A stretch of 54,763 bases of DNA from Terriglobia bacterium (lineage in GTDB: Bacteria; Acidobacteriota; Terriglobia; JAIQFV01). The notes below the pieces were generated by a model. That model was given only the letters and a program-made list of their open reading frames with translations. It made no database searches and was not told the DNA's origin. Of this stretch, positions 54,597 through 54,763 are shown in pieces; within the stretch, counting starts at the first letter, position 1, and each line of letters opens with the position of its first letter. Made by a program: the position numbers and the translations under genes. The stretch covers positions 1 to 54,763 of the forward strand of contig JAIQFY010000033.1 of assembly GCA_020072965.1 (NCBI GenBank), in the 5' to 3' direction.

Positions 54597-54631
54597 AAAG
54601 GAAGCTCGGAAGGTGAGCTTCCTTTTTTTTT
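54597..54631 (+). terminator. Rho-independent terminator after atpE
   Basis: The 11-bp stem AAAGGAAGCTC (54597-54607) with GAGCTTCCTTT (54615-54625) has a 7-nt loop and runs into a T-tract to 54631. A terminator here would cut off the downstream atp genes, which normally continue with atpF. Confidence 0.9.
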
Positions 54632-54632
54632 C

Positions 54633-54763
54633 GTGCGCCCGGCAGGGCGCACTCACTGGAAGGTGCAAGTCCTTTACGAGCCTGACAGGAGGAATCGTTA
54701 GCCGGACGGCAAGGGTGTCCACCGTGAGGTGGAATCTGAAGGAAGCCGCAGGCAAAACGCTGG
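54633..54763 (+). ncRNA. 5' end of a group II intron, running off the window
   Basis: The stretch begins GTGCGCCCGGCAGGGCGCAC, the GUGYG 5' boundary with the first helix. It continues with AGGTGCAAGTCC, GTTAGCCGGACGGCAAGGGT and AATCTGAAGGAAGCCGCAGG, the characteristic domain I sequence of bacterial group II introns. It starts two bases after the T-tract of the atpE terminator, a placement typical of class C introns. The reverse transcriptase/maturase and domains V-VI would lie beyond the window. The exact class is not proven. Confidence 0.78.

Follow-up and report, generated by a model that had tools for sequence, protein, structure and literature searches.

A class C group II intron behind the terminator of the atpIBE gene cluster in a Terriglobia bacterium

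It is established that group IIC (class C) introns insert at intrinsic terminators (PMC4424553; PMC3522654). Among the described class C introns, Di.ze.I1 and So.gl.I1 occur in several copies per genome downstream of Rho-independent terminators (PMC3522654), as does the intron described here, although they belong to a different host lineage, the Enterobacteriales. The likeness to B.h.I1 and to the GsI-IIC element, also of class C, extends to the 5' GTGCG, the site right behind intrinsic terminators, the D1-D4 and D5 elements, and a reverse transcriptase and maturase that lacks an endonuclease and whose closest solved protein is the GsI-IIC RT. We found no feature that distinguishes our element from these, and the copy at the atpE site is incomplete only through the contig end. 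The atpE-site intron adds a further copy to a well-known kind of element.

Intron boundary and class assignment

The window, by which we mean the whole stretch of DNA analyzed, is the entire contig C57 (54,763 bases) of a 5.9 Mb genome in 108 contigs. We conclude, with a probability of about 0.97, that a mobile intron of class C (group IIC) has inserted 3' of the atpE terminator hairpin and that the window closes with the 5' end of this copy. Its initial 131 nt lie at 54633..54763 on the forward strand, as indicated by a covariance match, by the occurrence of five 5' and five 3' intron ends across the genome, and by an empty site in a congener, G001. The match is to Rfam RF02001 (group-II-D1D4-3), covers 54718-54763 with an E-value of 5.5e-5, and corresponds to model positions 1-46, where it is clipped by the contig end. 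A preliminary description had proposed a group II intron with a GTGCG start behind the atpE terminator and a covariance search for domain I, and both proposals are borne out. The GTGCG at 54633 agrees with the GUGYG 5' end of group II introns, and this base is the exact 5' boundary, since five contigs differ from one another upstream of it and are nearly identical downstream. A single C (54632) separates the GTGCG from the preceding T-run, a distance of one base rather than the two given earlier.

Complete relatives of the intron are present in three genomes of the same phylum (G048, G108, and G181), each of which has the D1-D4 elements and domain V together with an open frame of 464-481 aa. 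The encoded proteins have RVT_1 and GIIM domains, that is, a reverse transcriptase and a maturase, and at the Pfam domain level no HNH or other endonuclease domain was found in them. The closest solved protein to the reverse transcriptase of one relative is the GsI-IIC RT (E 7.8e-141). Likewise, the congener G001 carries one intron copy of its own, 94% identical at the 5' end and also placed after a terminator. Before its contig ends, this copy shows a reverse transcriptase frame of class C-like type, whose best solved match is again the GsI-IIC RT (E 3.7e-78). Because the relatives encode a reverse transcriptase and maturase without an endonuclease domain, closest in solved structure to the GsI-IIC RT, we assign the element, on the sequence features tested, to the bacterial class C introns. 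The protein features are those of homologues, the gene of the atpE-site copy lying outside the assembly. The EBS1 loop of this copy, which in class C introns takes part in the EBS1-IBS1 and EBS3-IBS3 contacts to the flanks, falls past the end of the contig. The conserved ribozyme domains are represented by the start of RF02001 in the window, by domain V at the matching 3' end on another contig, C108, and by the full set in the relatives.

The terminator as insertion target

A terminator scan places the intrinsic terminator of atpIBE, the target of the intron, at 54597..54631 on the forward strand. It comprises a 12 bp stem with a loop of 5 (54597-54625) and a T-run (54623-54631), folds with -17.3 kcal/mol, and its hairpin is also found in the intron-free congener. 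The upstream flanks of the five intron 5' ends in the genome are unrelated in sequence, and each contains a stable hairpin (-17 to -24 kcal/mol) with a T-rich tail. A test for a hairpin followed by a T-run was passed by all five intron boundaries and by 58 of the 108,910 remaining positions of the window (5.3e-4). Given this difference, the adjacency of the intron boundaries to terminators is not due to chance. Insertion directly behind an intrinsic terminator hairpin, as is characteristic of class C, was observed for all five copies here and for the congener's copy, in support of the earlier proposal that a class C intron had targeted a terminator hairpin. The locus is a clean instance of a known, gene-sparing choice of target.

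By inference, the intron is active: its RNA, in complex with the reverse transcriptase/maturase that it encodes, would have entered the DNA immediately 3' of the hairpin by reverse splicing. The same reverse transcriptase would then have copied the inserted intron to DNA, with priming probably at a replication fork.

The empty site and the ATP synthase genes

Three atp genes precede the terminator, all on the forward strand: a gene for an AtpI-like ATP synthase accessory subunit (52491..52787; Pfam ATPase_gene1, E 5.6e-12), atpB for F0 subunit a (53218..53961; ATP-synt_A, E 1.1e-53), and atpE for F0 subunit c (54231..54542; ATP-synt_C, E 7.9e-12), which is the last gene of atpIBE and is 98% identical in the congener. 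In G001, the same site is empty: no intron separates the terminator of atpI-atpB-atpE from the response regulator, ACP, and FabF genes that come next. The atpI-atpB-atpE stretch of the window and that of G001 share 86% DNA identity, and the downstream part of G001 is 88% identical to C108 over 5 kb. C108 itself starts with an intron domain V and 3' end in the expected orientation. Synteny with G001, rather than reads, thus points to C108 as the 3' neighbour of C57. This synteny, together with the intron 3' end on C108, gives the order atpIBE, terminator, intron, response regulator-ACP-FabF. An extension beyond the contig end had been proposed as a check, and it yielded domain V and the 3' boundary, both assigned to this site by synteny; the maturase ORF that was also expected did not appear, the middle of the intron being absent from the assembly.

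Group II introns often occur as truncated copies, and here the intron body is not in the assembly, so one might take the atpE-site copy for a truncated or dead fragment with only its 5' end behind the terminator. We regard this as very unlikely, since the syntenic downstream contig begins with domain V and the 3' end where they are expected, and both ends are therefore present. In a milder form of this explanation, the copy may have an internal deletion or a broken reading frame. As one copy of a mobile class C intron with both ends in place, the element would have its body between C57 and C108, with an expected size of ~1.9 kb. It has the same orientation as atpE and lies between atpE and the response-regulator gene, so that most of its transcription would come from read-through. 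It is also very unlikely that the intron alters the expression of the response regulator-ACP-FabF genes or the 3' terminus of atpIBE transcripts.

In many bacteria atpF lies 3' of atpE, and the preliminary description had the intron interrupting the atp operon, but a split by the intron of an ancestral contiguous operon, whose atpF and F1 genes would then lie on its far side, has almost no probability, since C68 carries both atpF-type genes as well as atpH-A-G-D, response regulator, ACP, and FabF genes follow atpE in G001 and G002, which have no intron at the site, and eight further relatives have no atpF-type gene within the stretch fetched 3' of atpE (0 of the 10 relatives examined). The empty site in G001, where atpIBE ends at the terminator, refutes such a split. 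On C68, the atpF'-F-H-A-G-D genes form a separate, uninterrupted cluster (66241-71922) that includes both atpF-type genes, and the check for atpF beyond the intron led instead to the response regulator, ACP, and FabF side on C108. With a gene cluster on either side, the intron breaks no operon or gene, which removes the false lead of a disrupted ATP synthase operon. The ATP synthase genes were already divided before the intron arrived.

The division of the ATP synthase genes into atpI-B-E (52491-54542) and atpF'-F-H-A-G-D appears to be shared across the class.

Intron copies, the assembly break, and a second intron

The 5' end found in the window also terminates C44 (100% identical) and C20, C68, and C90 (96-97%). 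A common 3' piece of ~140 bases with domain V stands at the start or end of C22, C27, C64, C78, and C108, and on all five of these contigs it ends CCTACCCGAT, in agreement with the AY 3' end of group II introns. A full-length relative used as query matched only the ends of the intron in this genome, its body being absent from the assembly, and a TIGR04416 search of the genome for the body returned a sole reverse transcriptase, on C107, which comes from a different class-C-like intron. A whole-genome RF02001 search returned nothing, yet direct scans of the contig ends match; the genome-wide search misses truncated matches. A repeat of about five copies leaves just such a trace in an assembly: five of each end, 5' and 3', and an unassembled middle. 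Thus, the contig ends here at an assembly break in a multicopy repeat of about five near-identical copies, and the element explains the stop points of C57 and at least nine other contig ends in the assembly.

On C30, C38, C37, C1, C18, and C43, further group II matches to domain V (36.8-44.7 bits) belong to other sequence types. Several of them lie well inside contigs in which the TIGR04416 genome search found no reverse transcriptase, and these matches are possibly ORF-less or relic introns.

The second class-C-like intron has its body on C107 and 3' ends on C6, C29, and C48, and both its 5' and 3' ends are unlike those of the atpE-site intron. Besides its 446 aa enzyme (C107:92-1432), no other assembled group II reverse transcriptase was found in the genome. 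The intron sits in a family of repeats, each ~290 bases long, that are bounded by inverted repeats (TTAGGTTGACGC..ATGC) and contain three strong hairpins; the end motif of this family has 41 matches across the genome and the reversed pattern has 0. In at least two copies the intron sits exactly behind the last hairpin of the repeat, with no T-tract. Intact repeat copies (L206, L210, and L212) read GGGGGGAT-TATGGACC, whereas C107 instead reads GGGGGGAT-GTGCG (L030), and on C6 (L031) and C29 (L032) the repeat resumes at TATGGAC.
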